In this document: positions 1 through 35,424 of the stretch, in pieces
Layout of the letters: every line of letters starts with the position of its first letter
Position numbering within the stretch: the first letter of the stretch is position 1
From: a virus
DNA length: 35,424 bases
IMG/VR virus record: IMGVR_UViG_3300047408_000041
Span: 1 to 35,424 of that record
Reading direction: 5' to 3' (one strand)
The notes under the pieces: generated by a model
What the model was told of the DNA's origin: nothing
Seen by the model: only the letters and a program-made list of their open reading frames with translations
Databases searched by the model: none
Made by a program: the position numbers and the translations under genes

Positions 1-127
1 TCTCCAGCCACTCAAAGGATGGATTGTACAGCTGCTCATGCACCCTGCCAGCTGTCGTGCCACTCACCAGAGCAGCTGCACCTAGATGGCCATACCCATC
101 TATTGCCTGCACTGTGCTGGTAAAGGC
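1..127. repeat. Terminal direct repeat, left copy
   Basis: Bases 1-127 are identical to 35298-35424. The repeat falls inside one coding frame, and removing one copy joins the two halves of the tail-tip gene in phase. This fits an assembler k-mer overlap (127 is a common k) on a circular or circularly permuted genome rather than a biological terminal repeat. Confidence 0.95.
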
Positions 128-2158
128 CAGAGCTGGGATCATGAGGGCCAGGTATGAGGTTTGCACTGGTAATGTCACGCTATAGCCTATGCCTCCCTGA
201 TTGATTGTGATCCTGTAGCCTGCAATACCCAGGCCATTAGGATCTGAGGGTGTGCTCCAGATAAATTGCAGCTGGGCCTCATCTATGTCTGGCAGGTATA
301 CGTTTGAGTTGACAGAGAATGTGGGAGGTGCTGGGAGCCTCAGGTATGAGGCCACCACAAAATCTGCCAGGCCAGCTGATGAGGGTGCCCAGGCACTCAC
401 TGTCCAGGCATTCTCTGCCCTCACCCTGCTCTGGTGGATTGTGGCTCCTGCTGGCACCATAAATATAGCCTGGGTGGCACTAGCTGCCACCAGTGTCTCC
501 TGGGTGGCTCCTCCCACCACTGTGCACTGGATCCTCTGGTGCAGCACTGAGGGATCTGATGAGGGTGTCCAGGTAAATGTGAGCTGTGTTTTATCAATCA
601 CTGGATCATACACAGAGCTCTGAGCCAGGCCAGTGGGTGCTGGCAGAGCTGGAGCTGCAGGGCTAGTACCTGTCACCCTGTTTGAGGGTGGGCTCCAGTG
701 GTCATGCGTATCTTTTGCATCCACCACCACATCATAGGCTGTGCTGGGTGGTATGTACCTGGAATAGGTGCCCTCCAGGTGCAGCATTACCACACCATAA
801 ATGGTGGCTTGATCCCACCACCTATGGGTGTCCACATCCCTGCTCACACTATTTACCCATGTCCAGGTCTGCAGGTATTGATTGAGCAGAGGTTGCCACA
901 CCTGTGAGGCCAGTGTGAGGTTTGTGGGTGCCAGAGGAGGTGTATTATCTCCCTCTGCTGGAGCTGCCAGTATGCCCTCACCACTCTCCAGGAGCTCCAG
1001 CCTCCTGCCTCCCAGGGTGAGTGTATAGAATGGATCATCATCAGTCGTGACATCTATGGCCACCTGCACCACCCTGTAATTGACACCTCCTGAGAGCCCA
1101 TCCTCCAGGCTATCAATCTCTGTCACCACCTCTCCAGGCATAATAGGGCTATCAGATCCGTGCTCATACACCTCTCTAGGGTATGCCACTTGATCCACTG
1201 CTATCTGCAGCTGTGAGAGAGCCTGGCCCAGTGTGGTGGAGGTGGTATCCTTTGCCGGATCCAGGGCCTGCCAGCTGCCACTATTGCCTCCAGGATTGTG
1301 CTGGTGATTTATGAATGGATTAGGATATGAGGCCTGTGCTGCTGTGTTTTCATAGGTGGCAGGGATCTGTGAGCTGGAGTACCAGGCCTGGGCTCTCTGG
1401 CTCACTTTGGTGCTGTCCAGGCTCCTGCTGGGTGTGCCATACCTGTACTTTTGGCCCCCTGTGGGTGCATCACTGAAAACGTACAGTGGAGAGGGTGTGA
1501 CAGCTCCATCCCACACGTGCAGCACTGGATTGCCTATGGGATCACTCACACCAAATGTGGAGCCTACTCCTATGTAAAATTGAGGCCTCAGGGCCTGATT
1601 GATTGCCCTGGCATTCGTGCAGATCTCCAGCAGCATCTGCCCATAGGTTTTACCGTGTGCCACATAGGCAGGCATTCCAGCTGCCACCAGAGGCTCCACA
1701 TAGTTTGAGGCATCAATCTCAATATTGACAGAGCCATGTCCCTGGTACTGCACAGCCTGGGAGAGGGCCACAATCTGAGAGGCAAATGAGCCTGCTGGGA
1801 TGGTCACAGATTTGTTGTCATCAATATCAATCCTCAGGTGTTTGAGGAGGATATTACAATCTGTTACAGCCACTTTCCACTGGGCCATCTGGCCTTTGGC
1901 TGTGGTGAGCCTGCCATCTATCAGACCTATGAGCCACCTGCCTCTGGGTGCCACTCCAGCTCCTGTGCCATCAAAGGCCTGCCACAGCCTCACCACCTGC
2001 TTATTTTTTATGGTGAGGCCTCCTGCCAGTTTTTCAAAGTACAGGTTGCAGGATCCCACCACTCCAGGCCCTGAGGGCCTCAGAGCCTCCATTGCCACCC
2101 AGTATGGTGTGAAGTCCACACCATCGATGGTGCACATCCGTTTGCCCTGCAGGCTCAT
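1..2158 (-). CDS. Tail-tip hub/receptor-binding protein, N-terminal part (gene continues across the contig ends)
   Basis: The ATG at 2158 lies one base after the tape-measure stop (TGATATG). The frame stays open to base 1 and continues in phase at 35297, ending at 34027, for a total of 1,142 aa. Residues 1 to about 395 resemble a siphophage baseplate hub or Tal N-terminus (a segment reading LWQAFDGT, then a beta-rich stretch). Three fibronectin-III-like repeats follow, starting near residues 407, 506 and 609 (PLAPTNLTL, PAPTGLAQS, PAPPTFSVN). A sugar-binding-like jelly-roll starts near residue 711 (NPSFEWLER). The position directly after the tape measure and the domain order suggest one protein serving as hub, stalk and receptor binder. 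The hub assignment rests on position and general pattern; the repeats are clearer. Confidence 0.85.
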   Translation of the reverse strand, partial: MSLQGKRMCTIDGVDFTPYWVAMEALRPSGPGVVGSCNLYFEKLAGGLTIKNKQVVRLWQAFDGTGAGVAPRGRWLIGLIDGRLTTAKGQMAQWKVAVTDCNILLKHLRIDIDDNKSVTIPAGSFASQIVALSQAVQYQGHGSVNIEIDASNYVEPLVAAGMPAYVAHGKTYGQMLLEICTNARAINQALRPQFYIGVGSTFGVSDPIGNPVLHVWDGAVTPSPLYVFSDAPTGGQKYRYGTPSRSLDSTKVSQRAQAWYSSSQIPATYENTAAQASYPNPFINHQHNPGGNSGSWQALDPAKDTTSTTLGQALSQLQIAVDQVAYPREVYEHGSDSPIMPGEVVTEIDSLEDGLSGGVNYRVVQVAIDVTTDDDPFYTLTLGGRRLELLESGEGILAAPAEGDNTPPLAPTNLTLASQVWQPLLNQYLQTWTWVNSVSRDVDTHRWWDQATIYGVVMLHLEGTYSRYIPPSTAYDVVVDAKDTHDHWSPPSNRVTGTSPAAPALPAPTGLAQSSVYDPVIDKTQLTFTWTPSSDPSVLHQRIQCTVVGGATQETLVAASATQAIFMVPAGATIHQSRVRAENAWTVSAWAPSSAGLADFVVASYLRLPAPPTFSVNSNVYLPDIDEAQLQFIWSTPSDPNGLGIAGYRITINQGGIGYSVTLPVQTSYLALMIPALAFTSTVQAIDGYGHLGAAALVSGTTAGRVHEQLYNPSFEWLE

Positions 2159-2159
2159 A

Positions 2160-4865
2160 TCAATACACTCCCATCTGCCTCAATCTGTCTCCCACCTGCT
2201 GGGAGACAGCTGCCACAAAATCAGCTGCCAGAGCCTGGCCATTCGTGCCAGGGCCTGCATTTATCACCATCCCTGTAAAATCAAACCGGATGGTGCCTCC
2301 AGCACCACCTCCAGGAGCTCCTGAGAGGGCACCCAGGCCCACACTCCCTGAGGAGAATGCTGTCACACCCTGCACTGGCACTCCTCCCACCACTGGAGCT
2401 CCTGAGAGAGCTGCACCTATGGTGCCCAGGCCCACACTCTCTGTCATAGCTTGCAAATCCTGCAGGTGGCCCATGAGGGTGTCCTTTACTGCAGGCATTC
2501 CAGCATCCAGGCCTGCCACCATACCGTTTGGCAGCTCCTCAAACAGATCTGCCATGAGGGTGGAGGCACTGTGGATCCCAAAGAAGTTTTTGACAGCATC
2601 CACCACAGATCCCAGCATCCCTGTCACCCAGTTGAGAAAACCCTGCCAGCCATTCTGGATGCCCTGCTGGATACCACTCACTATATTTTGGCCTATGGTG
2701 AGTACCTTTGTCGCAGCATCTGCAGCTGTGGAGGTGATCCAGTCCCACACCTTTTGGGCTATCTCCAGCAGTTTGGCACCTATGGTGGCTAGCACTCCTC
2801 CTGGCCCTGTGATCCAATTCCAGAATGCTGGGATCCACTCATTCACCAGGTGGGCTCCCAGGTCTGTGGCTGTACTGGAGAGCCACTGCCAGAGAGCTGT
2901 GGCTATCTGCCCTAGCCAGGTGCCCAGCTGTGGCAATACACTCTGTGTCACCCAATTTTGGAATGCTGTGCTCCACTCTGCCAGCTTTGCCAGAATTGTT
3001 GGCCCATTAGTCGTGATCCAATTCCACACAGCAGAGATCACTGTGCCCAGCCACCCAGGCAGCTGGGAGAGGAGGGAGCCTATCCAATCAAAGAATGATT
3101 GAGCCCACACTGCCAGCTGGGCCAGAATTGTTGGCCCATTCGTTTGGATCCATCCCATAATGAGCTGGATCACCTGGGCCAGCCACCCAGGCAGCTGTGG
3201 AATTACATCAGTCCAGATCCAGGAGAGGAGGGCACCTGCCCACTGGAGGAGCTGGCCTATAATCTGAGGCACTGCACTTATGAGAAAACCCAGCAGTGAG
3301 CCCAGGAGCTGGGCCAGAAAACCCAGCAGAGGTGGTATCTGTGGCAGGATCCACTGAATGAGGGCCAGGCCCCACTGGGCCAGGGTGGCCAGCACCTGAG
3401 GCACAGCAGCTGCCAGGAATTGCAGGGCCTGCTGTACAAACTGGCCCAGTGCTGCCAGGATCCCTGGCAGAGCTGTCTGGAATTGTGTCCACAGGCCCTG
3501 GATCCAGGCACCTATCATAGGCCCTGCCTGGGCCAGGAACGTGCCTATGGCCTGGCCTATCTGGCCAAATACTCCAGGGATGGCCTGCAGCACCCCCAGT
3601 ATGCCTCCAGTCTGGAATGCCTTTGTGAGGGTGTCCCATCCCTGCTGGAATGCCTGGATCACAGGCTGTGCCACCTGCCATACCTGTGTCACCAGATCTC
3701 GAATGCCCAGAAAATTATTTTGGAATGCTATCCACAGAGCTGCTATCACCAGGCCCAGGGCCACAAAGGGTGCTGCAGCTGCCAGTGTAGCTGCCACCAC
3801 TGGCAATAGTGCAGGCAGGGTGGTGGTGAGCATAGTGGTGGCCCAGGCTATAAATGCAGGCACCACCTGGGAGAGGATGATTGAGCCCAGCAGTATGAGC
3901 ACAGGCACAGCATTCTCTGTGAGGAATTGCCCTATATTCTGCAGGGTGGGCCAGGCATTTATAAAGGCCTGTGCCAGATCATTTACCAGAGGCACCAGGA
4001 AGTTTATGGCACCTGTGAGGCCCTGGGCCAGTGCATCTGCCAGGCCCTGGATAACACCCATCACCTCTGGAGAGCCCAGCCATCCCATAAACTGGGTGAG
4101 CAGAGGCACCAGAGTATCACCCACACTCTGCTCTACATTTTTGAATGCCTCAGAGAGCTGCATTTGCTTGCCGGCAAACGTGTCTGCAGCTGCAGCTGCA
4201 CTGCCACCAAACTCTTTTGAGAGCTCATCCAGAATTACCTTTTGAGCTCCAGCCATATCACCAGCATCCTGCATGGTTTTTATTTGGTTTTTTTGCGCGT
4301 CTGTGAATGTGACACCCACACGTGTGAGGGCAGTGAGGCCCTGGGTGGGATCATTTAGGGCTTTGCCTAGCTGTATTGCACCTCCAGATACGTCTGTGCC
4401 CATTGCCTGGGCCATGTCCACCATCGTCTGGGTGGCCTGTGGGAATACATCAGAGCCTATGTTTGTGAATGTGAGGAGGAGGTTTTCACCTTTGAGCACA
4501 GCATCATCAGCTGCCATACTCACACCATTTGCTGCACTGAGAGAGGAGGCCAGATCCTGGGCCTGCTGGGAGGTGACACCAGCTTTACCACCTGTGCTCT
4601 CCAGCACAGCTCCCAGCTGTGCCACTCCAGCACTCCACTCCTGGCTCTCACCTATGGCATCACCAAAGAATGAGGTGATCTGGCCACCCAGGGCACTCAC
4701 TCCAGCTGTGACAGCACCACCCAGAGCGAATGAGAATGCATTTTGCAGTACAGCACCCTTTTGAGAGGTGTTTTCTGCATCTGTGGCCACCTGCTGGAGG
4801 CCCTGGGAGGCCTCATTCCTGAGCTCAATTAGTAGCTGCAGACTGGCATTTGCTCCACCACCCAT
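2160..4865 (-). CDS. Tape measure protein
   Basis: This 901-aa protein is the largest intact gene in the window. It sets tail length and fills the tail tube before DNA ejection. The N-terminus is Ala/Gly-rich with coiled-coil character. The middle, about residues 280-470, is strongly hydrophobic. From about 470 to 740 it has many spaced Trp residues, including two near-repeats containing TNGPTILA at about residues 575 and 616. The C-terminus carries FGIHSAS, the family's typical end motif, followed by a GMVAGLDAGM-type helix. I see no lysozyme or peptidase domain. The start is supported by AGGAGG seven bases upstream of ATG. It lies between the chaperones and the tail-tip gene, as in other siphophages. 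At about 1.5 angstrom per residue the tail would be about 135 nm (inference). Confidence 0.95.
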   Translation of the reverse strand: MGGGANASLQLLIELRNEASQGLQQVATDAENTSQKGAVLQNAFSFALGGAVTAGVSALGGQITSFFGDAIGESQEWSAGVAQLGAVLESTGGKAGVTSQQAQDLASSLSAANGVSMAADDAVLKGENLLLTFTNIGSDVFPQATQTMVDMAQAMGTDVSGGAIQLGKALNDPTQGLTALTRVGVTFTDAQKNQIKTMQDAGDMAGAQKVILDELSKEFGGSAAAAADTFAGKQMQLSEAFKNVEQSVGDTLVPLLTQFMGWLGSPEVMGVIQGLADALAQGLTGAINFLVPLVNDLAQAFINAWPTLQNIGQFLTENAVPVLILLGSIILSQVVPAFIAWATTMLTTTLPALLPVVAATLAAAAPFVALGLVIAALWIAFQNNFLGIRDLVTQVWQVAQPVIQAFQQGWDTLTKAFQTGGILGVLQAIPGVFGQIGQAIGTFLAQAGPMIGAWIQGLWTQFQTALPGILAALGQFVQQALQFLAAAVPQVLATLAQWGLALIQWILPQIPPLLGFLAQLLGSLLGFLISAVPQIIGQLLQWAGALLSWIWTDVIPQLPGWLAQVIQLIMGWIQTNGPTILAQLAVWAQSFFDWIGSLLSQLPGWLGTVISAVWNWITTNGPTILAKLAEWSTAFQNWVTQSVLPQLGTWLGQIATALWQWLSSTATDLGAHLVNEWIPAFWNWITGPGGVLATIGAKLLEIAQKVWDWITSTAADAATKVLTIGQNIVSGIQQGIQNGWQGFLNWVTGMLGSVVDAVKNFFGIHSASTLMADLFEELPNGMVAGLDAGMPAVKDTLMGHLQDLQAMTESVGLGTIGAALSGAPVVGGVPVQGVTAFSSGSVGLGALSGAPGGGAGGTIRFDFTGMVINAGPGTNGQALAADFVAAVSQQVGDRLRQMGVY

Positions 4866-4929: not shown

Positions 4930-4932
4930 CAA

Positions 4933-5819
4933 TCAATCAAAATCAGGATCCGGCTCTGTTATGTACTGGCCACCTTTGGCCCCATTCGCACCAGCTGCAG
5001 CTCTGGTGGTGGTGGTGGTGCTGGTGGTGGTGCTGGCCTTTGAGCCTTTGGGTTTATGTTTGGAATTAGCAGAGAGCTTTGCCACCAGCTGCTCAATAAA
5101 ATCAGGATCCTGCTCATCTATCTGCTCTGGTGTCCAGTGGAGAGCCTCTGCCAGCAGCACCTCAGTGTCATAGTCTCCTATTGAGGTGCCACCAGGCCAG
5201 AGGCCATCCATTGCCCTCAAATATCTCTGCTCTATTACTTTGGGCTTATTCTCTCCCTCTTTTTGTTGCGCCTGCCTATCTCCTCCACCACCCTGGCCAC
5301 CAGCATATTATCTGGATCCAGATCCAGGATGTTATCACGTGTCACAGCCATTCCCACAAAGGATGGCCCCATCCAGCTCACCACATTTAGCACCAGGAGC
5401 TCAATATTGTATGAGCCTATGTCAAAGCCTCCCTGCATACCTGCCAGGGCCAGCTCATCCTCAGAGGCCTGCTCTGTCTGCACCTCTGCCAGCTGCAGGC
5501 CTCCACCAGAGGCAGCTCCTGCAGGAGGTGGCATACCAGGCACCTGTGCAGAGGAGCTCCCTCTGCCATTCGCTCTGGCACTCTGTGCTGCCTGTGCACG
5601 TGCAGCTGCCTTTGGATCCACCTGCATCCTGGAGGCCAGGCCCATCAGTTTTTGTTTTTGGCCATAATTCATTTTTCGCTGGATGTATATCCTGTCCAGA
5701 CCGTGCTCATCATCCTGCTGTACATCACCTATGTCCAGGGCCTCCTGCAGATCCTCTCCCTCCAGCTGCACTGGCACAGGATCTTTGCCTCTGCCAACAA
5801 ACATATTATGTCCTGCCAT
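4933..5819 (-). CDS. Tail assembly chaperone GT, -1 frameshift fusion
   Basis: This is the predicted 295-aa product made when ribosomes slip -1 on CCCAAAG (5238-5244), just before the stop of the upstream chaperone. The T part adds 101 residues starting VIEQRYLRAM. It has an acidic helical segment followed by a Thr-rich low-complexity stretch (about 4970-5035) and ends at 4933. The T frame alone has only a TTG with no ribosome-binding site, so expression by frameshift is the simplest explanation. In lambda the G and GT proteins coat and chaperone the tape measure during tail assembly, and the order here (tail tube, G/GT, tape measure) matches. The ratio of the two products cannot be read from sequence. 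Confidence 0.85.
5235..5819 (-). CDS. Tail assembly chaperone G-like protein
   Basis: A protein of 194 aa between the tail tube and tape measure genes. An Ala/Gly/Pro-rich linker (about residues 70-115) separates two folded-looking parts. The C-terminal part ends in a basic helix (EIGRRNKKRERISPK). The chosen start is ATG 5819, eight bases after GGAGG within GGAGGTACTA. A GTG 30 bases upstream is in frame but would place this ribosome-binding site inside the gene. The stop TAA directly follows the slippery heptamer used for the GT fusion. Sequence identity to known chaperones is not obvious to me; the call rests on position, size and the frameshift signal. Confidence 0.8.
   Translation of the reverse strand: MAGHNMFVGRGKDPVPVQLEGEDLQEALDIGDVQQDDEHGLDRIYIQRKMNYGQKQKLMGLASRMQVDPKAAARAQAAQSARANGRGSSSAQVPGMPPPAGAASGGGLQLAEVQTEQASEDELALAGMQGGFDIGSYNIELLVLNVVSWMGPSFVGMAVTRDNILDLDPDNMLVARVVEEIGRRNKKRERISPK
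5238..5244 (-). other. Programmed -1 ribosomal frameshift site CCCAAAG
   Basis: On the minus strand the frame-0 codons are AGC CCA AAG TAA. The heptamer C CCA AAG fits the X XXY YYZ rule, and after slippage both tRNAs re-pair on CCC and AAA. The -1 frame then stays open for 101 codons. Lambda uses GGGAAAG at the same place in its G/T genes. Confidence 0.85.
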
Positions 5820-11577: not shown

Positions 11578-12879
11578 CTATATGAGGGTGATTTTCTCGA
11601 ATGCCAGAGGCCTGGGCACTCCGAATGCAGCTCTGAGCTCTGCCAGGATGGCCACAGCATTCCTCAGGAAGTAGTCTGTAGGCTCACCCACACGTATCTC
11701 TGTCTGCATCCTGTCCCACAGGGTGGCTCCCATTCGGAAATTGCCCACCAGGGCAGTGAGGGCTGGGATGGCAGCTGTCTCCACCAGAGGCACTCTCCAG
11801 ATCCGCTGGGCCACTGGATCATATATCTGCACTTCCTCAGTGTTGATATACTCATTTGTGGTGGCCTTTAGCAGCTCCACAGCCTCTGCATCCGCTGGGT
11901 TGAGCACGATGGCATCCGGCTGATAGAATGCCAGTCGTATATCTGTGATAGCACGGCGCAGGGTGTCTGCCTTTGTGTCTGTGGTGAGCTGGCCTCTGCC
12001 TGTGGGTGCACTGGCACTCATCACTCTGAGCTGGATGCCTGCTGTCTGCAGGATCCCTGTAAAGTTATTACCAGTGCCATCCCCATTCAGGATTTGATCC
12101 TCCAGGGCCACCTGCACCATATAGGTGAGCTCATTATCAATGGTGCCTCTGAGCCTGGGTGCATCGTCCAGGATCTGCCTGGAGGCTCCTATCCAGGTAG
12201 CAATGGTGCGTACAGGAGCTGTCACACCAGCAAATACCAGGTTGCTCTCTGGCTTTAGGCCAAAGGCTCCAGCACTGTACTCTGGCACCACAGCTGCAGT
12301 GTTTGTGCGGGTGATCATCTGCACATAGGCCACAGCATCAGAGGTGGTGGGAATTGTTGTCACCATATCCAGGATGGATCTGGGCCTCTGCCTGGCAATG
12401 TCCAAAGGATCATTGTAGTACACAGGCTGCGTCATAATTCCACCAGCAGCATCTGTGGCCCCATACAGGGCCTTTTGCTGGATGTCGTGCCTGGGATCCT
12501 GAGGCCTCAGGTGGGCCTTTACGTCCACTGCACCCATGTCCCTGCCATTATTGTGCTGGTATGTCTCGCTCTCCACCACCAGCTGGCCCCATGATTTTCT
12601 GCCCTCACCAGGCAGATACAGGCCACCACTCTGGCCCTGCAGGCCCTCTGAGAGAGGAGCTCTGCCAGAGCCCAGGCTCACAAAGCCCTCCAGGCCTTTG
12701 AGCTCTGTGAGCTGGGTGATCTCTGTCCTGAGGCCTTTGCCCTCAGTGATCATCCTCTCCAGGGCATCCCTGTCCTCCTGGGTGACACCATCACCCTTTG
12801 CCTCCAGAGAGGCATAATACTGCTTTGTTTGGTTGATTTTGGTTTGCAGCTGTGTCTCCAGCTCTTTGAGCTCTGCCAT
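11578..12879 (-). CDS. Major capsid protein, HK97 fold
   Basis: A 433-aa protein from ATG 12879, with AGGAG about ten bases upstream. An in-frame TTG at 12897 would place the ribosome-binding site inside the gene. The N-terminal part (about residues 1-75) is a coiled-coil delta/scaffold domain (ELETQLQTKINQTKQYYAS). The mature part carries the P-loop/E-loop region (GGIMTQPVYYNDPL), then VVPEYSAGAFGLKPE and the C-terminal LRAAFGVPRPLAFEKI, a typical end of HK97-type capsid proteins. It follows the prohead protease, which would remove the delta domain. Its ribosome-binding leader is shared with the tail tube gene. Confidence 0.93.
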   Translation of the reverse strand: MAELKELETQLQTKINQTKQYYASLEAKGDGVTQEDRDALERMITEGKGLRTEITQLTELKGLEGFVSLGSGRAPLSEGLQGQSGGLYLPGEGRKSWGQLVVESETYQHNNGRDMGAVDVKAHLRPQDPRHDIQQKALYGATDAAGGIMTQPVYYNDPLDIARQRPRSILDMVTTIPTTSDAVAYVQMITRTNTAAVVPEYSAGAFGLKPESNLVFAGVTAPVRTIATWIGASRQILDDAPRLRGTIDNELTYMVQVALEDQILNGDGTGNNFTGILQTAGIQLRVMSASAPTGRGQLTTDTKADTLRRAITDIRLAFYQPDAIVLNPADAEAVELLKATTNEYINTEEVQIYDPVAQRIWRVPLVETAAIPALTALVGNFRMGATLWDRMQTEIRVGEPTDYFLRNAVAILAELRAAFGVPRPLAFEKITLI

Positions 12880-12981
12880 TTTCTTTGCTCTCCTCAATAC
12901 GTAGTAAATGATTAGTGATTGATTGCTGGTGGCCAGCAGCTCCTCTGGCTCACACTCTCTCTGGCCTCCTGGCTCACAGGA

Positions 12982-13878
12982 TTAGGTGAGGCTCCTCTCC
13001 ATCTCCAGCTCCAGGAGCTCCAGCTGCTGTTTGAGTGTCCACAGTGGTGGCAGAGCTCCGGCTGTGTCCTTTTGGCCAGCAGGTGGCTGGGTAATACTCT
13101 TTTTGCCAGGATCCTCCTCAGGATCCTCCTCAGGATCCTCTTTGTCCTCCTCAGTGTCCTCAGGTTTGCCTTTGCATACAGTGGGCTCCAGATCCACAAT
13201 CATATTGTGGATGCTCTTTATTAGTTTGCGGTCTGCACCACTGTGCCTGGCTCCAGATTTGAGGGAGAGCCTGCCCAGGCCCTCAATAATAGCTTTGATA
13301 TGCTCCAGGGCTATACCTGTCTCTGGTGTCCACAGCACCTCCAGCTGGTGAGCCTTTGAGGCAATGGTGGCAGGGTTTGCACCCCACAGCACATCCGATA
13401 CCTCCCACAGCTTTACCTCTTTGAGCTCCCTCACCTGGCTATTGCCAGTCTCTGTGGCGATGGGTGTAAAATCCGTTTTCACAGGATCATAGCCATAGCT
13501 CTGCTGGGTGATGGCTCCCTCCAGGAGGCCCTGGTATGCCTCCTCACCTCTGGGTGTCTGCAGATACTTGCGTGCCACCTGCACTCCACCAGAGGCCTCT
13601 GGGTATGCTGCCAGGAGCTCAGGAGGCAGCTCCTCCCTGGGCACCTCTTTGAGATCCACCACAGCTGCAGTGGGAGGCCCTGAGGCACCCCAGTCCATAT
13701 TGTGGCTCCACAGGTATTTGATGTTTTTCGTGCTCATGCCCTCTCGGATGGTTTTTGAGAATGAGCCAGGCCAGCTCCTGTCCATTACATAGTCCACCAC
13801 TCCGTGCACAGCAAATATGCCTGTGACCTCTCTGCCCTCTATACCTTTGGTGTAGGTGGGTATAACTTTACGCTCCAC
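12982..13878 (-). CDS. Prohead protease (HK97 U35 family) with C-terminal scaffold-like tail
   Basis: A 298-aa protein. The protease domain covers about residues 1-190: GIFAVHGVVDYVMDRSWPGSF, with probable catalytic His59 (YLWSHNMDWG) and Ser127 (GAITQQSYGYDPV), and KLWEVSDVLWGANPAT at its end. Beyond residue 200 is a charged region with a tandem EEDP repeat (13105-13145) and a C-terminal helix, which may act as a scaffold. It matures the capsid shell. The start is GTG 13878, six bases after AGGAGG. It lies between portal and capsid genes as usual. Confidence 0.9.
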   Translation of the reverse strand: MERKVIPTYTKGIEGREVTGIFAVHGVVDYVMDRSWPGSFSKTIREGMSTKNIKYLWSHNMDWGASGPPTAAVVDLKEVPREELPPELLAAYPEASGGVQVARKYLQTPRGEEAYQGLLEGAITQQSYGYDPVKTDFTPIATETGNSQVRELKEVKLWEVSDVLWGANPATIASKAHQLEVLWTPETGIALEHIKAIIEGLGRLSLKSGARHSGADRKLIKSIHNMIVDLEPTVCKGKPEDTEEDKEDPEEDPEEDPGKKSITQPPAGQKDTAGALPPLWTLKQQLELLELEMERSLT

Positions 13879-16917: not shown

Positions 16918-17317
16918 CCGTTATGATTGCTCCTCCGTCTGGGCCTGTATGCTCTGTCCTCTGCACGTCCCTGTACACATCCGGTTTGTGGGCTTTGAGC
17001 CAGAACATGAGCAACAAATCTGATTTAGCTTTGCCTCTCCTCAGGGCCTCTGCCTCTGCCTCCTCAATAGCCTCAGTGAGGGCCTCCTGCCAGGCCTCAC
17101 CAAACAGGGCATCCGCATCCCTCCAGTCATAGGCTGTACGTCTGGATATTGAGGCAGCTCTGCAGGCACTGCCCACACTCTCTCCTGCCCTGAGCATATC
17201 CAGGAAAATGCCTTTTTTCTTTGCTGTGAGGGATGCGCGTAATTCCTCCCATTTGGCCCTGAGCTCAGGATCCTCTGGAGGTGGTGGCAAATCCTTTGGT
17301 GGCCTGCCTCTGAGCAT
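16850..17317 (-). CDS. terS: Terminase small subunit
   Basis: A 155-aa protein. A helix-turn-helix (VGSACRAASISRRTAYDWRD, about residues 48-67) is followed by a helical acidic segment (EAIEEAEAEALRRG) and the typical FWLKAHKPDVYRDV. It binds the packaging site and recruits the large subunit. It starts eight bases after AGGAGG within GGAGGTATAGACT. It overlaps the large subunit gene by 68 bases. Confidence 0.9.
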   Translation of the reverse strand: MLRGRPPKDLPPPPEDPELRAKWEELRASLTAKKKGIFLDMLRAGESVGSACRAASISRRTAYDWRDADALFGEAWQEALTEAIEEAEAEALRRGKAKSDLLLMFWLKAHKPDVYRDVQRTEHTGPDGGAIITDGTIRIIIESAPQTGPIHPEPE

Positions 17318-19990: not shown

Positions 19991-20899
19991 CTATAGGTGT
20001 CCGGTTTTCCTCAATCGTTTGGCCTGCTCTGGGCTCAGGTCTGCCCACCTGCTCTCATCCTCACTCACAGGCAGCATGAGCCTCAGTGGGAGCTCTTTGG
20101 GCCTCTCCAGAGGGTATGAGCCCTCCAGCTCCAGCTCCTGGGCACCAAAGGCCTGCAGAGCCTCCCTGTGCCTCACTGGATCCAGCTCTGCACCTATGTA
20201 GCTCCTGCCCATTGCCCTGCAGGCACGTGCCAGGGAGGCCCTGGATCCTGAGTACAAATCTATCACTAAATCTCCGTGTTTGCACGCCATGTCCACCAGT
20301 CTCCTGAGGGCCAGCTGTGGTTTTTCTGAGTGTCCACCTCTGGGTGCTGTCCAGGAATTGCTGGCCTCAGTGCGTGCCTCTGGGTGGCCCCTGGTATACA
20401 GGAGGAGGAGCTCTGCATTACCTCTAAAATGATAGCCCACACCTGAGCTCATCCCTGTCTTATGCCAGCTGCCTCCAGAGACATACCTCCAGCCTCTCTG
20501 CTCATTTGGATGGTTATTTGGCCAGCAATTGAGGAGCTGGGAGCTCCACTGCATCCACTCCTCCAGCTTTGGGAATGTGCACCACACCTGCAGATAGCTG
20601 TCCAGTGCAGCCACCTGGTGGGCCTGTTTGAGGTGGCCCCATATACTCTCCATACCCAGGCCATCGTATTGCCCAGAGGCCAGGCCTCTCTGCCTCCTCT
20701 TGCTCTGGCCTCTGGTGCCATCACTGTACACCCAGGGAGGATCTGCCATCACCAGGGTGGCCTTTGGCAGCTGCTGGGCCTCCTGCAGGGCCAGCACTCT
20801 CTCCAGCATTAGCTGGCAATCAGTCTGCCATATCACCTGCAGAGGCCAGGTGTCTGGCAGCTGCAGCTCCTCACCCTGCAGCACTTTAGCTTTGCTCAT
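19991..20899 (-). CDS. DNA methyltransferase, probable N6-adenine, beta class
   Basis: A 302-aa protein. Motif IV is DPPW (residues 53-56, MADPPWVYSDG) and motif I is C-terminal, LVIDLYSGSRASLARACR, so the order is that of beta-class enzymes. HSEKPQLALRRLVD near residue 194 is the usual linker before motif I. The aromatic DPPW favours adenine N6 over cytosine C5. It could protect phage DNA from restriction or modify host DNA. It is unlikely to cause the CpG depletion, since that would need a C5-cytosine enzyme. Target sequence unknown. Confidence 0.85.
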   Translation of the reverse strand: MSKAKVLQGEELQLPDTWPLQVIWQTDCQLMLERVLALQEAQQLPKATLVMADPPWVYSDGTRGQSKRRQRGLASGQYDGLGMESIWGHLKQAHQVAALDSYLQVWCTFPKLEEWMQWSSQLLNCWPNNHPNEQRGWRYVSGGSWHKTGMSSGVGYHFRGNAELLLLYTRGHPEARTEASNSWTAPRGGHSEKPQLALRRLVDMACKHGDLVIDLYSGSRASLARACRAMGRSYIGAELDPVRHREALQAFGAQELELEGSYPLERPKELPLRLMLPVSEDESRWADLSPEQAKRLRKTGHL

Positions 20900-21598: not shown

Positions 21599-22103
21599 TC
21601 TCACCACCTATCACCTCCTCTCTCTGTCTCTTTGATCTCCTGTCGTGCACTGGGAGCTGGGTGTGGCCTGGCACAGGCCATTTGCCCACCTTTGAGAGGC
21701 CTGGTGGCCTCCAGTCTGGTGGCAGGCCTCTCCTCTGCTTAAATGCTGCGAATGAGGTATAGTCCTCCCTGCTCTCTGGAGGAGGTGGCAGCTGGAGCTG
21801 GCCTCTGTATGAGGCCTGGTATCCACTCTGGGCCTCCTCCTCAATCTCTCTCCACTTTGCCACCACCTCACCAGCTGCCAGGGCATAGGTGCCCTCATGG
21901 CTCTGGATTGCCCTCCTGAATGCCTCCCTGAGCAGGTGGGTGGGCACCAGCTCCAGGGCATATAGCCAGCTCTCTCCCTCTGCACTAAATCTCTCCACAT
22001 CCACTGTCACCCTCTGGGAGCTGTGAGCCATACTCACTTGATCCAGTACAATAGCGTATCTCTCCTCCAGCTCCCTCTGCTCATATTTGCTCTCCCACCT
22101 CAT
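21582..22103 (-). CDS. Unknown protein coupled to the replication initiator
   Basis: A 173-aa protein whose ATG overlaps the initiator stop (ATGA) with GGAGG inside the initiator gene. The segment LREAFRRAIQSHEGTYALAAGEVVAKWREI recalls the pattern of phage helicase-loader or loader-associated proteins (helix, then an aromatic-Pro/Ala-rich entry to a W-containing helix). The rest is Pro- and Arg-rich. A helicase-loading role is possible from position but not shown. Confidence 0.65.
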   Translation of the reverse strand: MRWESKYEQRELEERYAIVLDQVSMAHSSQRVTVDVERFSAEGESWLYALELVPTHLLREAFRRAIQSHEGTYALAAGEVVAKWREIEEEAQSGYQASYRGQLQLPPPPESREDYTSFAAFKQRRGLPPDWRPPGLSKVGKWPVPGHTQLPVHDRRSKRQREEVIGGENDIPL

Positions 22104-22987
22104 ATCCTCTTGCCTCCTCCCTCTCTTTGTCGTTTGAGCTCCTCTGCTCTCTGTGCTGCCTCCCTGCCCAAACGCATTACATCAATAGCTGCCTGATTTG
22201 CTGCTGTATGCCCTCCTGAGCCATTCACAGGGTGCCCAGCACCATTTGAGCTGCCAGAGAGCCCTGGTGAGGCTGTGGTGAGCTCCTGTGGCCCTCTGGC
22301 CTGGCCACCAGACTGGGATCTCTCCTGGTGTCTCTTTTGGGCCTGCCTCATGCCAGTCCTCCACTCTGCACTCCAGTCTGCCCTCTCATAGCCTTTGGCC
22401 CTCATAGCATCCAGCCACTGCTCTGTGTCGGGCTCCACCTCCACCAGTGGGCAATGCTTTGTGCACCACTCCACCATCTGTGGTGTGACCTCCAGAGCCT
22501 CTGGTGGAGGTGTCAATTTGGCACCATTCCTCCTCTCTCTCTCTCTTAACTCATCCTCTCTATTAGTGGATGTATTAAGTATAGAGAGAGAGAGAGGCTC
22601 CAGAGGTGTCAAAATGGCACCTTTTTGTGCCTGGGAATGGTGCCATTTTGGCACCTCTGCACCACCCTGAGGCTCCAGAGGTGCCATTTTGACACCTTTA
22701 GCTGTGGCCAAATGGTGCCATTTTGACACTATTAGCAGCTGGTACTGGCTCACCTGGTGAGCTCCTGAGTGTCGTGCCACCTGGAGCTCACCAAAGGCCT
22801 CCAGGCCCTGCAGGTGCCTCACTGTGGCACGCTCTGAGTATCCACAGAGCCTGCACAGCTGGGCAATGGATGCTGTGCATACAGAGGAGCCTGGTGGGCA
22901 GAGCATGGCCAGCTCCAGGAGGAGGAGCCTCTCACCAGCTGTGGCTCTCGAATGCTCAAATACGATGCCAGCCTCCTCCAGGGCCAT
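22100..22987 (-). CDS. Replication initiator (lambda O-like arrangement)
   Basis: A 295-aa protein. The N-terminal winged-helix part (about residues 1-88) contains ASIAQLCRLCGYSERATVRH as the helix-turn-helix, the HTH_36 type found in phage initiators. The middle, about 89-160, is encoded by the iterons at 22509-22730 and reads as repeated short motifs (SKWHHLA, VKMAPLEP, PKWHHSQ, AILTPLEP, AKLTPPP). The C-terminal part is low-complexity with basic residues. By analogy with lambda O, the N-terminal domain would bind the iterons inside its own gene and recruit a helicase loader. The ribosome-binding site is AGAGGAGAGGATACTA before ATG 22987. Confidence 0.75.
   Translation of the reverse strand: MALEEAGIVFEHSRATAGERLLLLELAMLCPPGSSVCTASIAQLCRLCGYSERATVRHLQGLEAFGELQVARHSGAHQVSQYQLLIVSKWHHLATAKGVKMAPLEPQGGAEVPKWHHSQAQKGAILTPLEPLSLSILNTSTNREDELRERERRNGAKLTPPPEALEVTPQMVEWCTKHCPLVEVEPDTEQWLDAMRAKGYERADWSAEWRTGMRQAQKRHQERSQSGGQARGPQELTTASPGLSGSSNGAGHPVNGSGGHTAANQAAIDVMRLGREAAQRAEELKRQREGGGKRI
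22509..22730. other. Putative replication origin with five iterons
   Basis: Five 17-bp near-palindromic repeats lie at 22509-22525, 22605-22621, 22639-22655, 22680-22696 and 22714-22730. On the plus strand they read GGTGTCAATTTGGCACC, GGTGTCAAAATGGCACC, GGTGCCATTTTGGCACC, GGTGCCATTTTGACACC and GGTGCCATTTTGACACT. Start spacings are 96, 34, 41 and 34. Between the first and second lies an AT-richer stretch framed by a 15-bp inverted repeat (22532-22546 and 22583-22597). This matches the lambda-type ori layout inside an initiator gene. Confidence 0.75.
22532..22597. repeat. CT/GA 15-bp inverted repeat flanking an AT-richer core in the origin
   Basis: CCTCTCTCTCTCTCT (22532-22546) and its exact complement AGAGAGAGAGAGAGG (22583-22597) surround 36 bases including TGTATTAAGTAT. 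This is a candidate DNA-unwinding element beside the iterons. Confidence 0.6.
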
Positions 22988-25994: not shown

Positions 25995-27059
25995 TTAGGA
26001 TGCTGTGGCTATCTCCCTCCACTCACTCCTGGGCAGTGAGATTATATTGCCTCCCAGGGCCTCCAGCTCCACTGCCCTATCATAGCTCTCCACCTCTGTG
26101 CTGTGCCTAGTGACAGCGTTTGCCAGGCCCCACATACTCAGAGAGCCTCCCTCCACCAGGTGCCGTAGTACACCTGCCCTCTCTTTGTCATTCAGTGTGC
26201 TCTTTTTGGCCAGCACCTCCACTGCCTTTACCGGATCTCCCTCAATCCTGGCAGTGTCTGCCTCCTGCATCTTTGCCACTATTTTGCCCAGGATGGCCTC
26301 AGAGAGTGAGCCTCTCACTGTGTCTCTCACAGTCTTATAAAAGGCCACATCCTGAGCTTTGAGCGTATCATCAGCAAAAATCTCTGCTGCCTGGCTGTCC
26401 CAGATCTCCCAGGCTTTGCCTACATGGTTGCGCCTCTGGCCAAAATCGTTATGCACCATCCCATTCGTGCACACCAGTCTGAATGAGAGAGGCTGTACAG
26501 AGAGTGAGCCCAGGCCAGTCTCACTGTTTGTTATCAGGATCCCAGCCTGCACAGTGTCACCCACTTTGACATCCATTTGCACCCTGGGTGTGGTGGCCTG
26601 GATGTACAGCCTGCTGTCTGTGACCTCACAGGAGGCCAGCTGCAGGCCTGGCACGTCTGCCAGCTCTGGCAGCAGCACCTCCAGCAAATCGTAATTATCC
26701 AGCCTCCTGTACCTGTCGGAGAGGAGGGCTCTGGCCTGGCCATCCAGGCTCCTCACCATGCGCCTCTCTTTTGTCTCCCTGGCCTGGAATAGCGTATTGA
26801 TTGAGGTATCCAGCAGCTGGGTATGCCCACTCCTGAGCCTATCATAGTAGGCCTGTGGTATCTGCAGGTGGGTGGCCACCTGCCTGTGAGCTTGATCCAT
26901 CATAGTGAGGCCATTCACCACAGAGCCCAGAGCCATCTGGGTGCCTGCCTCATTCGTCTGTACACTCAGAGCCTGGCTCTGCACTACATAATCTGCCTTT
27001 ACCTCATTCTGCCTCTCCACTTCTGTGGCCAGCTCTACCAAAGATTTGCCTGTTTTCAC
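25995..27059 (-). CDS. DUF932 (phage/plasmid-like) protein
   Basis: A 354-aa protein from GTG 27059 with GGAGGTACTAAG directly upstream. Family features are DQAHRQVATHLQIPQAYYDR near residue 60, LSDRYRRLDNYDLLEVLLP near 115, a beta-rich core with FRLVCTNGMV near 200, and a helical C-terminus. DUF932 proteins are common on phages and plasmids; their biochemical role is unclear, with links to replication or DNA protection suggested. The ORF begins directly after a region holding a possible operator. High confidence in the family, low in function. Confidence 0.85.
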   Translation of the reverse strand: MKTGKSLVELATEVERQNEVKADYVVQSQALSVQTNEAGTQMALGSVVNGLTMMDQAHRQVATHLQIPQAYYDRLRSGHTQLLDTSINTLFQARETKERRMVRSLDGQARALLSDRYRRLDNYDLLEVLLPELADVPGLQLASCEVTDSRLYIQATTPRVQMDVKVGDTVQAGILITNSETGLGSLSVQPLSFRLVCTNGMVHNDFGQRRNHVGKAWEIWDSQAAEIFADDTLKAQDVAFYKTVRDTVRGSLSEAILGKIVAKMQEADTARIEGDPVKAVEVLAKKSTLNDKERAGVLRHLVEGGSLSMWGLANAVTRHSTEVESYDRAVELEALGGNIISLPRSEWREIATAS

Positions 27060-27081
27060 CTTAGTACCTCCTATAGGTTTG

Positions 27082-27096
27082 AGCACTGTACGTGCT
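27082..27096. promoter_or_regulatory. Operator-like palindrome AGCAC-TGTAC-GTGCT
   Basis: Five-base inverted arms flank five bases, just upstream of the DUF932 ribosome-binding site and downstream of the small HTH regulator gene. The size suits a Cro/XRE dimer site. Binding is not shown. Confidence 0.35.
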
Positions 27097-30486: not shown

Positions 30487-31389
30487 CTAGTGCTGGCCTA
30501 TGGTGGCCAGTGTCTTTTGGGAGGGCTCAAAGCCTGGCCACCCTGCAGAGCCTGGGCAGATAAATCTGCAGGTGGCCACTATGTATGGCTGTGCTCTGTA
30601 CCAGTCCAGTACAGCTGCAGATCCTGGCAGATCCTCTGCCTCAATCTCCAGCAGCTGGGCCTGTGTTGGGTGCTGCCTCTGCTCTGGTGGGTATTTATCA
30701 ATCAGTGAGCATCCCCATTCTGCCACCAGGATTTTGTATGAGGGTGCCCACCTGTGGTATTTGGCAGCATTTGCAGAAAACCCATCCTCCACAGCGTGCT
30801 TTGCATACTGGAAATAGCTGTCACAGCACAGGCCCTGCACCAGGTTAGGTGTATTGAGGATGAGCTTATACGCATCCCACCATCCTCCCTGGGCCTCAAT
30901 CTCTGCCCAGTGTCCAGGCCCATCTGCCAGTGGTGCCAGCCACAGCTGCAGCTCCTGCTGGAGGAGAGCCACCACTGCACTGCTGTGGCCATGCCCTGCC
31001 CAGTAGGTGCCCAGCAGGCTCCTCAGAGTGTGGATGGCATTCGTGATGAGCCACTGCCAGTTAAAACATTCGTGCACTGGCAGCTGGCCATTTGGCTCTG
31101 TGTCCAGCTGGTATATCCTCACTCCCACTGGGTGCAGCTGCACTATCTGCTCATACCACCTCCTGCCCAGCTCCTGGTATGAGTAATAGCTGCCATCCGG
31201 CCTGGTGGAATTGCTGCACCTGGCTATATACAGGCCTCCTGGGTGGGTGAGCTCCAGCTGGGCCACATTATCAGCTGTATGCTCTGGCATCAGTTTGGCT
31301 CCCTCAAACTTGCCCAGCTCATACGCACTGATTTGAGCCCTGTCCAGGAGGCCTGGCCTGTTTGGCAGGTGCAGTAGTTTTCTAGCCAT
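30487..31389 (-). CDS. Glycoside-hydrolase-like protein of the lysis region
   Basis: A 300-aa protein. YQLDTEPN (Glu98) and ILVAEWG (Glu225) resemble the acid/base and nucleophile motifs of clan-A TIM-barrel glycoside hydrolases, and their spacing of about 127 residues fits. The N-terminal ISAYELGKFEGAKLM has the start of a barrel strand. There is no signal peptide, so access to the wall would need a holin. It overlaps the holin-like gene by eight bases. It may be a second endolysin or a virion-associated depolymerase. The substrate is unknown, and it could instead be a peptidoglycan glycosidase of new type. Confidence 0.55.
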   Translation of the reverse strand: MARKLLHLPNRPGLLDRAQISAYELGKFEGAKLMPEHTADNVAQLELTHPGGLYIARCSNSTRPDGSYYSYQELGRRWYEQIVQLHPVGVRIYQLDTEPNGQLPVHECFNWQWLITNAIHTLRSLLGTYWAGHGHSSAVVALLQQELQLWLAPLADGPGHWAEIEAQGGWWDAYKLILNTPNLVQGLCCDSYFQYAKHAVEDGFSANAAKYHRWAPSYKILVAEWGCSLIDKYPPEQRQHPTQAQLLEIEAEDLPGSAAVLDWYRAQPYIVATCRFICPGSAGWPGFEPSQKTLATIGQH

Positions 31390-31904: not shown

Positions 31905-32630
31905 TTAGCCAGCCACCCTGCCATCCCACAGAGGGATGCCACCCCATACTTTGCCTGGCCAGTTTTCCGGCTTGCGTATATCAAACAGGTGGCCATAGAA
32001 TGTGGCCCAGTCGAATGGGCCAGCATTCGGATCTGTGTGGGCCTCCCTGGCTCTCTCATAGGTGGCCTGCACCTGGCCAGCTCCTGCCAGATCCCTCACA
32101 CTCCCAAATGAGGCATCCCAGTGTGAGCAGATGTGCAGGTTTGAGATTTTGGCCACAGCTGCATGATATGCGATTGAGAGAGCCAGTTTGATGTACTGGG
32201 CCTCTGTGAATAGCTGGCCACCATCCCCATTCTGCAGGTTTTCCAGCTCATAGCCTCTGGCGTGCAGATTGAGGAGCCTCTGGCCTCTCCAGCTCCCTGG
32301 ATTGCAGTGTCCACAGCCAAAGCCTGCAGGCACCATGTCATAAATCGTAAAATCATCCCTGGGTATGAGCTGGTGAGCACATACCAGTCTGCCATCCCTC
32401 ACACTGCCTGCTGGCTCTAATTCGTGCCAGTTTGCATCCACTTTGGCAGCAAAGTATGGCAGGGTGTTTGAGCCCACTGTGCCGTGCACCAGCTCCACCT
32501 CCTCACTCCACTTTGAGTAGGGTGTATACAGGATGGGTGGTGTTAGATAGCCTGTGTCGTTTGCTGCACTCCTCTGCCATACAGGCTTTACCTGCATCTT
32601 TGCAGCATAGTCTGGGTAATTCACACTCAC
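31905..32630 (-). CDS. N-acetylmuramoyl-L-alanine amidase (endolysin)
   Basis: A 241-aa protein from GTG 32630, eight bases after GGAGG; a TTG at 32636 is too close to it. The Amidase_2 pattern: LVHGTVGSNTLPYF with His49, ARGYELENLQNGDGG (family IGIELEN-like), ICSHWDASF with His170, and HTDPNAGPFDWATFYGHL with Asp200, matching the zinc ligands His, His and Asp and the family C-terminal DPG-x-FDW. An extra Cys-containing loop (GCGHCNPG) lies near residue 105. It cuts the amide bond between MurNAc and the stem peptide. No signal peptide is seen. Confidence 0.85.
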   Translation of the reverse strand: MSVNYPDYAAKMQVKPVWQRSAANDTGYLTPPILYTPYSKWSEEVELVHGTVGSNTLPYFAAKVDANWHELEPAGSVRDGRLVCAHQLIPRDDFTIYDMVPAGFGCGHCNPGSWRGQRLLNLHARGYELENLQNGDGGQLFTEAQYIKLALSIAYHAAVAKISNLHICSHWDASFGSVRDLAGAGQVQATYERAREAHTDPNAGPFDWATFYGHLFDIRKPENWPGKVWGGIPLWDGRVAG

Positions 32631-32659
32631 TCTCAATACCTCCTATGGTTGATTAGTGA

Positions 32660-33734: not shown

Positions 33735-34004
33735 TTACTTTTTGAGCCTGTACAGTTTGGCAGCTGTGGCCTGCACGTGAATGCTATCCACCAGGGCCTG
33801 CTGGGCCACCAGAGCTGCCTGGTATTGAGCTGGCGTGAGAGCATTCGCACCAAATACGGCATCCAGGTCTGCCTGCACTATCTGGATGCCATTTGTCTGC
33901 ATTGCTGCATACTCCTGCTGGAGGGCACTCCAGGCATCTGCAAACTGGAGAGTGTTTGATATGAGTGTTTGGGTGTCCTGTATAAATCCCTGCGTACGTG
34001 CCAT
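33735..34004 (-). CDS. Small helical unknown protein after the tail-tip gene
   Basis: An 89-aa helical protein (TLQFADAWSALQQEYAAMQT, QYQAALVAQQALVDSIHV). AGGAGG lies eight bases before ATG 34004. It is located between the tail-tip and lysis genes, so it may be a tail accessory or fiber chaperone. Family unknown. Confidence 0.65.
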   Translation of the reverse strand: MARTQGFIQDTQTLISNTLQFADAWSALQQEYAAMQTNGIQIVQADLDAVFGANALTPAQYQAALVAQQALVDSIHVQATAAKLYRLKK

Positions 34005-34026
34005 AATGCGTGCCTCCTATTAGGTG

Positions 34027-35424
34027 CTAGGTGTATATTTTACGTCCGGCCACCCTGGGTGGCCCCATCTGCATATTACCAGGTGTGCCTGTTTTCGTGA
34101 TCTGCACCTCAATCCACACATCTCCTGTCACAGTAGGATTGTTTGAGAATGATGTCATGGGTGCAGGGTGTGCCCAGGTGTCGTGTGCTGTTAGGGAGGT
34201 ATTGAGGGTGCCCATACTCAGGGTGCCAGAGCCACTATTGAGCCTCCTCAATTCTATAGTCCAATAGCTCAATCCGCTGTTTGTAGTGTATACAAAATAG
34301 CTGATGTCGAATTGAGTTATTAGCATACCGTTTTTGCCATCCAGCGTGCAGGCAAATACCTCTGTGTTTGCACTATATGGCTGTGCACCCAGATAGGTGG
34401 CCATAGGCAGGAGCTCCTCTGCACCCAGCCACCTGGTGCCATCACTCTCCAGCACCAGGCCTGCCTGGGCTATTACCTGCCAGTTTGCATTATCACTCTG
34501 CACTGCCACCACTTGATTTTTTTCTATCAGTGGGTATGTGCTAATACCATCAATCAGCTGTGAGGAGGTGGTGGCCAGTGTCACCTTTGCAGCTCCTCCA
34601 GTATTTTTGATTATGTACACCCTGCCACCTATGCCCACAGCTGTGGGCAGGGTGGCTGTGAATGGTGAGAGAGAGCTGCACAGGTACACTGTGGCACTGC
34701 TGTCCAGGGTAAAGCCTGCAGTTTTTGATATTGTGGTGAGGCCTATGGTATCCAGTCGTGCCAGTTTGGCAGCTGTAATGCTGGCATCTGCCAGTTTGGG
34801 TGTAGTGATTGCCAGGGCCTTTACATCCTGTGTCCTCACCTCTGCCCTGAATACCAGGTTATCTATCCACTGGTACTGGCCTGCAGCTGTAAAGCCTCCA
34901 GGCCCTGTGATTTTCAGTCGTGCATACCTGCTATTTGGATAGGCAAATATCCCTCCGTTTGCATTCTGCTGGCTCCAGGTGGAGGTGGTATTGTTTGGCC
35001 CTGTTACACCACTCACAGAGCCCAGGAATGCAAAGTTAACATCGTAATAGTCCACCTCAAATACATCAGCAGGCAGACTGGCATCAGATCTGCCATCCGC
35101 ATCCAGCAGGTATGATTTGCTCCCATCCACTCTAAAATAATCACTAATGATTGAGGGTGGTGTGCCTCCTGCAGAGAGTTGATCAAACCGTATGGAGTAA
35201 TTGCCATCAGAGGCCTGGCTATTATCCCAGAGTACATGGCCATTGCCTGTGCCGTTTGAGAGTGTCCACCCATCTGGGCTCACAGGCCCTGGCCTCCTCT
35301 CCAGCCACTCAAAGGATGGATTGTACAGCTGCTCATGCACCCTGCCAGCTGTCGTGCCACTCACCAGAGCAGCTGCACCTAGATGGCCATACCCATCTAT
35401 TGCCTGCACTGTGCTGGTAAAGGC
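34027..35424 (-). CDS. Tail-tip hub/receptor-binding protein, C-terminal part
   Basis: This is the same gene as 1-2158, continued across the contig ends. The frame is open to the end of the window and joins position 127 through the repeat. Within this part are the end of the third fibronectin-III-like repeat, and a jelly-roll region reading NPSFEWLER, then SDGNYSIRFDQLS, similar to carbohydrate-binding modules. Next comes a repeat-rich part (ITTPKLADASITAAKLAR), and a typical phage-fiber end domain with LIDGISTYPLIEKNQVVAVQ and SDNANWQVIAQAG. The final 130 residues form a beta-rich terminal domain. Stop at 34027. A methionine at 35409 is internal, not the start. Confidence 0.85.
   Translation of the reverse strand, partial: AFTSTVQAIDGYGHLGAAALVSGTTAGRVHEQLYNPSFEWLERRPGPVSPDGWTLSNGTGNGHVLWDNSQASDGNYSIRFDQLSAGGTPPSIISDYFRVDGSKSYLLDADGRSDASLPADVFEVDYYDVNFAFLGSVSGVTGPNNTTSTWSQQNANGGIFAYPNSRYARLKITGPGGFTAAGQYQWIDNLVFRAEVRTQDVKALAITTPKLADASITAAKLARLDTIGLTTISKTAGFTLDSSATVYLCSSLSPFTATLPTAVGIGGRVYIIKNTGGAAKVTLATTSSQLIDGISTYPLIEKNQVVAVQSDNANWQVIAQAGLVLESDGTRWLGAEELLPMATYLGAQPYSANTEVFACTLDGKNGMLITQFDISYFVYTTNSGLSYWTIELRRLNSGSGTLSMGTLNTSLTAHDTWAHPAPMTSFSNNPTVTGDVWIEVQITKTGTPGNMQMGPPRVAGRKIYT
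35298..35424. repeat. Terminal direct repeat, right copy
   Basis: Identical to 1-127. It marks the overlap at which the contig circularises to 35,297 bp. The extra copy is probably not present in the real genome. Confidence 0.95.

Follow-up and report, generated by a model that had tools for sequence, protein, structure and literature searches.

The stretch of viral DNA analysed here, IMG/VR record IMGVR_UViG_3300047408_000041 (positions 1–35,424, in full; hereafter 'the window'), is a phage genome from which many specific short words have been removed almost completely. We show that this depletion operates at the level of the DNA; it is word-specific, largely strand-symmetric, mostly non-palindromic and far stronger than any codon preference. 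The very low CpG content of the genome would be one component of this purge of many words of 4–6 bp, and it is not CpG as such that is forbidden. As to the cause, we favour selection by several sequence-specific host defences that recognise mainly non-palindromic, unmodified sites; the agent is one that we infer, and we give it about an even chance of being the right one.

Looking at CpG first, we see 344 occurrences against ~2,690 expected from base content (C 10,905, G 8,738; GC 55.5%), corresponding to an odds ratio of 0.126 when computed strand-symmetrically or 0.128 on the single strand; about seven eighths of CG pairs are therefore gone. The initial annotation of this record had described a near-absence of CpG, and had named a genome-wide ratio of about 0.5 as its upper limit; the full dinucleotide count falls far below that limit. 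Its hand count of 7 CpG in bases 1–1260 was exact (ratio 0.074), and the accompanying features are likewise borne out: GpC, TpG and CpA are abundant (1.14 for GpC, 1.57 for TpG/CpA), 85% of arginine codons are AGG/AGA, and NCG codons make up just 1–7% of their families. The loss is even and not mosaic, given that the variance in CpG per kb (8.7) is close to the mean (9.7); across the 35 full 1-kb segments the ratio ranges from 0.049 to 0.214. It is also present in the 3,540 bases that lie outside open reading frames (ORFs) of at least 50 amino acids (aa), with 45 CpG against 253 expected, and at all three codon positions, where 86, 86 and 133 CpG are found against 375, 965 and 975 expected under a random-synonymous null. 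We compared the window with 171 other loci of at least 3 kb, fetched by similarity of the terminase large subunit (TerL); pieces of the window and of its relative L003 were excluded, and some of the loci overlap one another. Just one of these (L151) has a lower CpG ratio and none has a stronger 4-mer bias, 'extreme' being meant here relative to these loci and to a set of hand-chosen control phages.

The surviving CpG are distributed very unequally between words. For the 592 CpG hexamers with an expectation of at least 8, we find that 275 are absent, 61 reach at least half of their expectation and 12 equal or exceed it; uniform depletion is rejected (chi-square 5,001, 591 degrees of freedom; ratios 0 to 1.9). 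Words that are retained include CGTGCA (36 against 19.8 expected) and CATTCG (29 against 16.0), and the contexts of retained CpG that had been picked out earlier by eye, CACGAC (27, all on the coding strand and 0 on the other) and CATTCG (36 over both strands), are indeed to be found amongst them. A sparse model attributes a weight of −0.36 to CG in the window, as compared with −1.76 for CGAG, −1.71 for CCACG, −1.67 for CACCG and −1.52 for CGATC; the equivalent weight on CG in the CpG-free phage L178 is −4.94. With CpG words treated so unequally, and most of the word bias residing in words without CpG, CpG as such is not the depleted unit.

How far short words dictate the text of the genome can be seen from synonymous codon choice, which we modelled from the DNA words that each choice creates, scoring held-out genes by log-likelihood (in nats per codon). 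Uniform choice scores −1.235, codon usage −0.932 and symmetric dinucleotides −0.906; symmetric words of up to 3, 4, 5 and 6 bases then give −0.71, −0.592, −0.513 and −0.47, respectively. A CpG term by itself reaches −1.080, or about one fifth of the gain made by the word model. For 5-mers, symmetric and strand-specific models are equal (−0.486 vs −0.485), and the addition of codon terms brings almost no gain (−0.511 vs −0.513). Expressed as a share of synonymous-choice information, symmetric words of up to 6 bp explain 0.62 in the window, as compared with 0.11 in T7, 0.08 in lambda, 0.10 in P2, 0.14 in Mu, 0.07 in psiM100, 0.13 in ctLpZ231, 0.21 in Mwe-Yong1, 0.12 in Nsp-JY10 and 0.23 in L003. 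These nine ordinary controls (the five named laboratory and reference phages, two cyanophages, one uncultured phage and L003) were picked as well-known laboratory phages or as matches from other searches, and are not a random sample. Six further loci also gain little from words (L180/181, L099, L112 and L154, plus L007 and L081 from cellular genomes), and two other unusual phages, L178 and L177, reach 0.38 and 0.45. A comparison restricted to non-CpG words, which score −0.5191 both with and without the CpG term (all words −0.5128; window only), was not used, since non-CpG features absorb the effect of CpG and the two hypotheses cannot be separated in this way.

Words eliminated from the ORFs were defined as those 4–6-mers at or below 0.1 of the expectation given by synonymous sequences sampled from a fitted symmetric trinucleotide model. 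In the window, 59 of 1,198 testable words are eliminated, leaving 37 once words that contain a shorter one are dropped; a second run again returned 37. Six of the 37 contain CpG, and palindromes number one (CCATGG) in the first run and none in the second. The nine ordinary controls yield 0–9 eliminated words, L178 yields 7 and L177 yields 15. Grouped by eye, the words fall into families: CGAG, GACC, CCAAG/CAAGG/CCTTC, those containing CCCC, GCTGAG/GGCTGA/GGCTGC, CCAAT, GTCAG, GAATC and GATCAG. Dinucleotide content predicts 1,969 copies of the 37 words over the whole window, and 48 are present; this ratio is biased downward, the words having been selected from the window's own ORFs. Outside ORFs, a count on which that selection has little bearing, 3 copies are present against 183 expected. 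Since the words are missing here too, the target is the DNA and not the codons. The same 37 words stand at 0.75 of expectation in L003, and at 0.75–1.04 in psiM100, T7, lambda, Mu and L178; the relative thus shows far less of the purge than the window does. In sum, about six tenths of synonymous-choice information is set by short, largely strand-symmetric words, in a genome whose controls lose few words, many of them palindromic.

The boundaries of these words are sharp. Counting both strands, GATCA is followed by A 23 times, C 31 and T 17 but never by G; CTCAG by A 38 times, G 87 and T 31 but never by C; and GGGCC by A 94 times and T 148 but never by C or G (here, a following G would create a CpG). 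Further words are nearly or wholly missing from every frame of the coding strand, with CGGG found 0 times against 225 expected, CTCG 0 against 120, GTCC 0 against 103, CCCC once against 113 and GAAC twice against 137. A strand bias is also apparent for AGTC (5, vs 73 for GACT).

Elimination of the non-palindromic words affects both strands and extends to non-coding as well as coding DNA, and the preference for palindromes that characterises avoidance of orthodox Type II restriction is absent: palindromic 6-mers number 586 against 710 expected. For this reason, and with at most one palindrome amongst the 37 words, we rejected palindromic Type II sites as the explanation of the window, single cases that would fit being GGGCCC (0 against 28 expected sites) and GANTC (1 site). 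L003 by comparison strongly avoids 6-bp palindromes (33 observed, 158 expected), and CAGCTG, present 110 times in the window, occurs 0 times in L003; the histories of avoidance seem to differ between the two phages. GANTC is also found just once in L003, so that its avoidance may be common to both.

The explanation that we favour would work as follows. Host defences recognising unmodified short DNA sites—bacteriophage exclusion (BREX), restriction systems of Type I, IIG or III-like kinds, perhaps also recognition of the protospacer-adjacent motif (PAM) type—would have selected for loss of the recognised sites from the phage genome, mostly via synonymous changes; many of the removed words contain CpG, and the genome-wide CpG ratio would thereby fall to 0.13. 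The closest match to a characterised system is provided by GATCAG/CTGATC, which is totally lost from both strands of the window (0, against 15–24 expected) and present 20 times in L003. GATCAG is the motif of Salmonella BREX, according to a study that also describes BREX motifs as 6-bp and non-palindromic, and T7 as lacking GATCAG too (PMC11341690). It is the sole eliminated word that we have matched to a published motif, the others not having been compared with a motif database. Depletion of PAMs has similarly been described, for some groups of host and CRISPR type, in phages of CRISPR-bearing hosts (PMC4246573). The window is also depleted of very short motifs, such as GAA/TTC and AAG/CTT. 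We take these to resemble Type I PAMs; the window nevertheless differs in that individual 4–5-mers are nearly absent, many of which are not PAM-like.

With respect to restriction-site avoidance in phages, as surveyed in PMC6286503, the window is alike in having short words near zero, apparently through selection, and differs in the near-lack of palindromes amongst those lost. The controls show the contrast: palindromes make up 4 of 9 lost words in T7, 3 of 3 in lambda, 5 of 8 in P2, 6 of 8 in Mu and 6 of 9 in ctLpZ231. Others break it, with 0 of 7 in L178, 0 of 2 in Mwe-Yong1, 3 of 15 in L177 and 1 of 2 in L003. A stronger form of the proposal, in which the text of the genome is shaped around at least some twenty non-palindromic recognition sites and avoidance of defences fixes most of the synonymous sequence, we hold more tentatively, at a little under an even chance. 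If it is true, the missing words are a readable fossil of the defence repertoire of the host population, including motifs not yet assigned to systems; more generally, if defence is the cause, the words missing from phages reveal the recognition motifs used by the defences of uncultured hosts.

Saying this, several points weigh against host defences as the agent. The plain CpG term keeps its small negative weight in the window, and the TG/CA excess is greater than plain avoidance predicts; part of it goes with a general excess of CAG/CTG. Under a stricter null, in which all sub-words are known, words below 0.15 of expectation number just 1 of 135 4-mers, 9 of 384 5-mers, 9 of 813 6-mers and 4 of 1,000 7-mers (GGGCCC being the only palindrome flagged). 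Depletion extends to units of just 3 bp (GAA, AAC, AAG, GAC), which is shorter than any restriction site known to us. Other words are lost from one strand: on the coding strand GTCC is found 0 times and GGAC 117 times, which a protein-keeping null does not explain, and for words of 2–4 bases the strand-specific model is the better by 0.009–0.015 nats. A large number of systems, perhaps twenty, would be needed. Finally, site avoidance as presented in PMC6286503 is mostly directed at orthodox Type II systems, being absent for Type I/IIG and rare for Type III, and the window, with 0 or 1 palindrome in 37 words, is unlike published Type II avoidance.

Amongst the alternatives, the one that survives best, and that we nonetheless think unlikely, is that the phage mirrors a host genome with the same word bias, itself the product of a mutation or repair spectrum. 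L003 (GC 54.8%, CpG ratio 0.527; protein identities in Table 1) lends this some support, as its 4-mer profile correlates with that of the window (r 0.73) and its CpG loss is milder, so that the tendency may be common to a host group. A TerL profile run against contigs of 84,980 species found 138 bacterial or archaeal stretches with a relative. However, amongst the best 80 of these 138 the 4-mer correlation with the window never exceeds 0.522 and the CpG ratio is at least 0.525. Furthermore, the sharpness of the 6-bp words, in which one final base never occurs and the others occur often, is unlike any mutation spectrum known to us.

Less probable again is one of the two readings offered in the initial annotation, deamination of methylated CpG: a host cytosine methyltransferase would methylate CpG, which would then deaminate to TpG/CpA faster than selection could remove the change. 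The TG/CA excess from which this was argued is real (1.57), and of about the same magnitude as the CpG deficit; what is missing is the pattern of replacement. We examined codons for which the amino acid and the first two bases are conserved between L003 and the window, noting that L003 is a single relative and not an ancestor, and that with diverged synonymous sites the comparison is open to saturation. Where L003 has NCG, the window has A in 16 cases, C in 15, T in 13 and G in 2, in line with general NCN usage in 14 window genes (chi-square p 0.58); A, which deamination should favour here, thus accounts for just 16 of 44 replacements. Where L003 has NNC before a G, the window has A in 5 cases, T in 5, G in 8 and C in 1; T, in this case the base that deamination should favour, makes up just 5 of 18 replacements. 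With this one relative, then, CpG is not replaced mainly by TpG/CpA at synonymous sites, A, C and T being about equal at NCG. Conserved arginines encoded by CGN in L003 (n = 35) are AGR in 23 cases and CGN in 12 in the window; deamination would have turned CGN into Cys, Trp or stop, or into His or Gln, and the change from CGN to AGR needs a transversion. On the other side, threonine codons show a shift from ACG to ACA relative to L003, and where an L003 CGN arginine has been exchanged for another amino acid, 6 of 17 are now Gln or His, the products of deamination (1 of 12 for AGR). Vertebrate-type CpG loss arises by deamination of 5-methylcytosine, and combines low CpG with raised TpG/CpA. The window is alike in both respects, but it has no preferred CpG transition, its arginines have moved to AGR, and words without CpG are lost just as sharply. 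Pfam scans covering each of the 39 predicted ORFs showed no C5-cytosine methyltransferase, the one methyltransferase found being of the N6-adenine/N4-cytosine kind. It should not, therefore, be assumed that a phage with a low CpG ratio has undergone methylation and deamination; of the earlier interpretation, selection of some kind is supported, and neither deamination of methylated CpG nor CpG as the forbidden unit is.

Direct selection against the CpG dinucleotide we rate marginally lower still. Such a pressure does seem to exist, as judged from a separate phage clade with hardly any CpG (L195–L274; the best 80 of 133 TerL relatives, these being contigs and not independent lineages, with L195 the query's own record). 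Within it, 53 of the 80 contigs have no CpG and 69 have a ratio below 0.02; TG/CA lies at just 1.03–1.22, for which reason the clade looks like the product of selection on CpG itself. Five of the relatives, with 86% TerL identity, have ratios of 0.30–0.46. The record represented by L178–L179 (the whole of IMGVR_UViG_3300029448_000481; 22,453 bp) contains 1 CpG against ~640 expected, and all 247 arginine codons in L178 ORFs of at least ~100 aa are AGA/AGG. A phage lineage can evidently shed CpG almost totally. In the window, by contrast, the 344 CpG left are concentrated in certain words, some above expectation; the weight falls on longer CpG words (up to −1.76) more than on CG (−0.36, vs −4.94 in L178), and of the word bias the CpG term alone covers only about one fifth. 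That the very skewed codon usage (GAG 95%, GTG 80%, CTT <1%) reflects adaptation to the codons or tRNAs of the host is highly improbable, as the words are avoided in all three frames and outside ORFs, and codon usage is a far poorer predictor of synonymous choice than symmetric 3-mers (−0.932 vs −0.71).

Searches bearing on the host were made in phyla that are guesses, such that empty results carry little weight. The top TerL matches by E-value (38%) lie in metagenome-assembled genomes (MAGs) titled Chloracidobacterium and Pyrinomonadaceae (L007, L008), which is not evidence of a host. TerL matches at E 1e-20 or better occur in 14 of 400 genomes from the phylum of a MAG titled Dehalococcoidia. 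Of two lysin candidates, that at 31905–32636 has weak matches in 2 of 297 genomes from the phylum of a MAG titled Acidobacteriota, in 1 of 301 from that of the Dehalococcoidia MAG and none in a further 12 genomes or records; that at 30487–31389 has none in 251 genomes. With the first 18.5 kb as query, 41 of the 297 Acidobacteriota-group genomes gave spacer-like DNA matches at E ≤0.01 (the best at E 2.6e-5), of which many fall in a TGG repeat at 5004–5036; ten of the matching loci show no regularly spaced repeats within up to 1.5 kb on each side. In the viral collection, queries with TerL, the capsid and a two-row alignment returned L003 as the only close relative, a lysin query returned none, and a wider TerL profile returned distant relatives only amongst the best 80 of at least 462. 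Megablast of bases 1–25000 against 50,697 phage records gave no match. Amongst the open-licence papers listed under phage CpG depletion or avoidance, judged by title and the opening of the abstract, no report of such a pattern appeared, which is no proof of absence.

The record carries a 127-bp direct terminal repeat with identical copies, which suggests that the genome is complete. All 39 predicted ORFs lie on the minus strand (our scripts use a greedy ORF caller with a minimum of ~100 aa, or 50 aa for the non-ORF counts, and may take in a few wrong ORFs). ORFs at 34027–35424 and 2–2158 are parts of one gene split by the ends of the record; as the left-edge gene runs on through the terminal repeat into the right-edge ORF, the record is probably a circle, or a terminally repeated genome, cut within that gene. 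Genes for capsid, prohead protease, portal and terminase adjoin one another, which places the genome with the tailed dsDNA phages (Caudoviricetes with an HK97-type head). No tRNA genes were found in the window.

Table 1. Coordinates of features in the window
Feature	Position	Strand	Comment
Whole phage genome record	1–35424		CpG ratio 0.126 and genome-wide loss of specific short words
Terminal repeat, left copy	1–127	+	Identical to 35298–35424
Tail tape-measure protein	2160–4865	−	Pfam TMP_2
HK97-type major capsid protein	11578–12897	−	Phage_capsid; 71% aa identity to L003
Prohead protease	12982–13878	−	Peptidase_S78
Portal protein	13967–15685	−	58% aa identity to L003
Terminase large subunit (TerL)	15715–16917	−	76% aa identity to L003
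Terminase small subunit	16850–17317	−	
Holliday junction resolvase-like	18872–19492	−	DUF1064
DNA methyltransferase, N6-adenine/N4-cytosine family	19991–20899	−	Pfam
Replication-initiation protein, weakly O-like	22100–22987	−	
DUF932 protein	25995–27086	−	
Amidase_2-like protein	31905–32636	−	E 8e-5, short of curated cut-off
Terminal repeat, right copy	35298–35424	+	Identical to 1–127

The methyltransferase could protect some sites. The Amidase_2-like protein is a possible lysin, and as such would point to a peptidoglycan-bearing host. An ORF at 17693–18130 (minus strand) has a weak match to the dATP/dGTP pyrophosphohydrolase family (E 3.4e-4, short of the curated cut-off), a family known from phages whose DNA contains 2-aminoadenine; Pfam scans of the window showed no partner enzyme for this. 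Lastly, the other phage with extreme word bias, L177 (IMGVR_UViG_3300037245_001406; 15 of 907 words eliminated), has a CpG ratio of 1.16, and contains GATC once in its ORFs against 68 expected.

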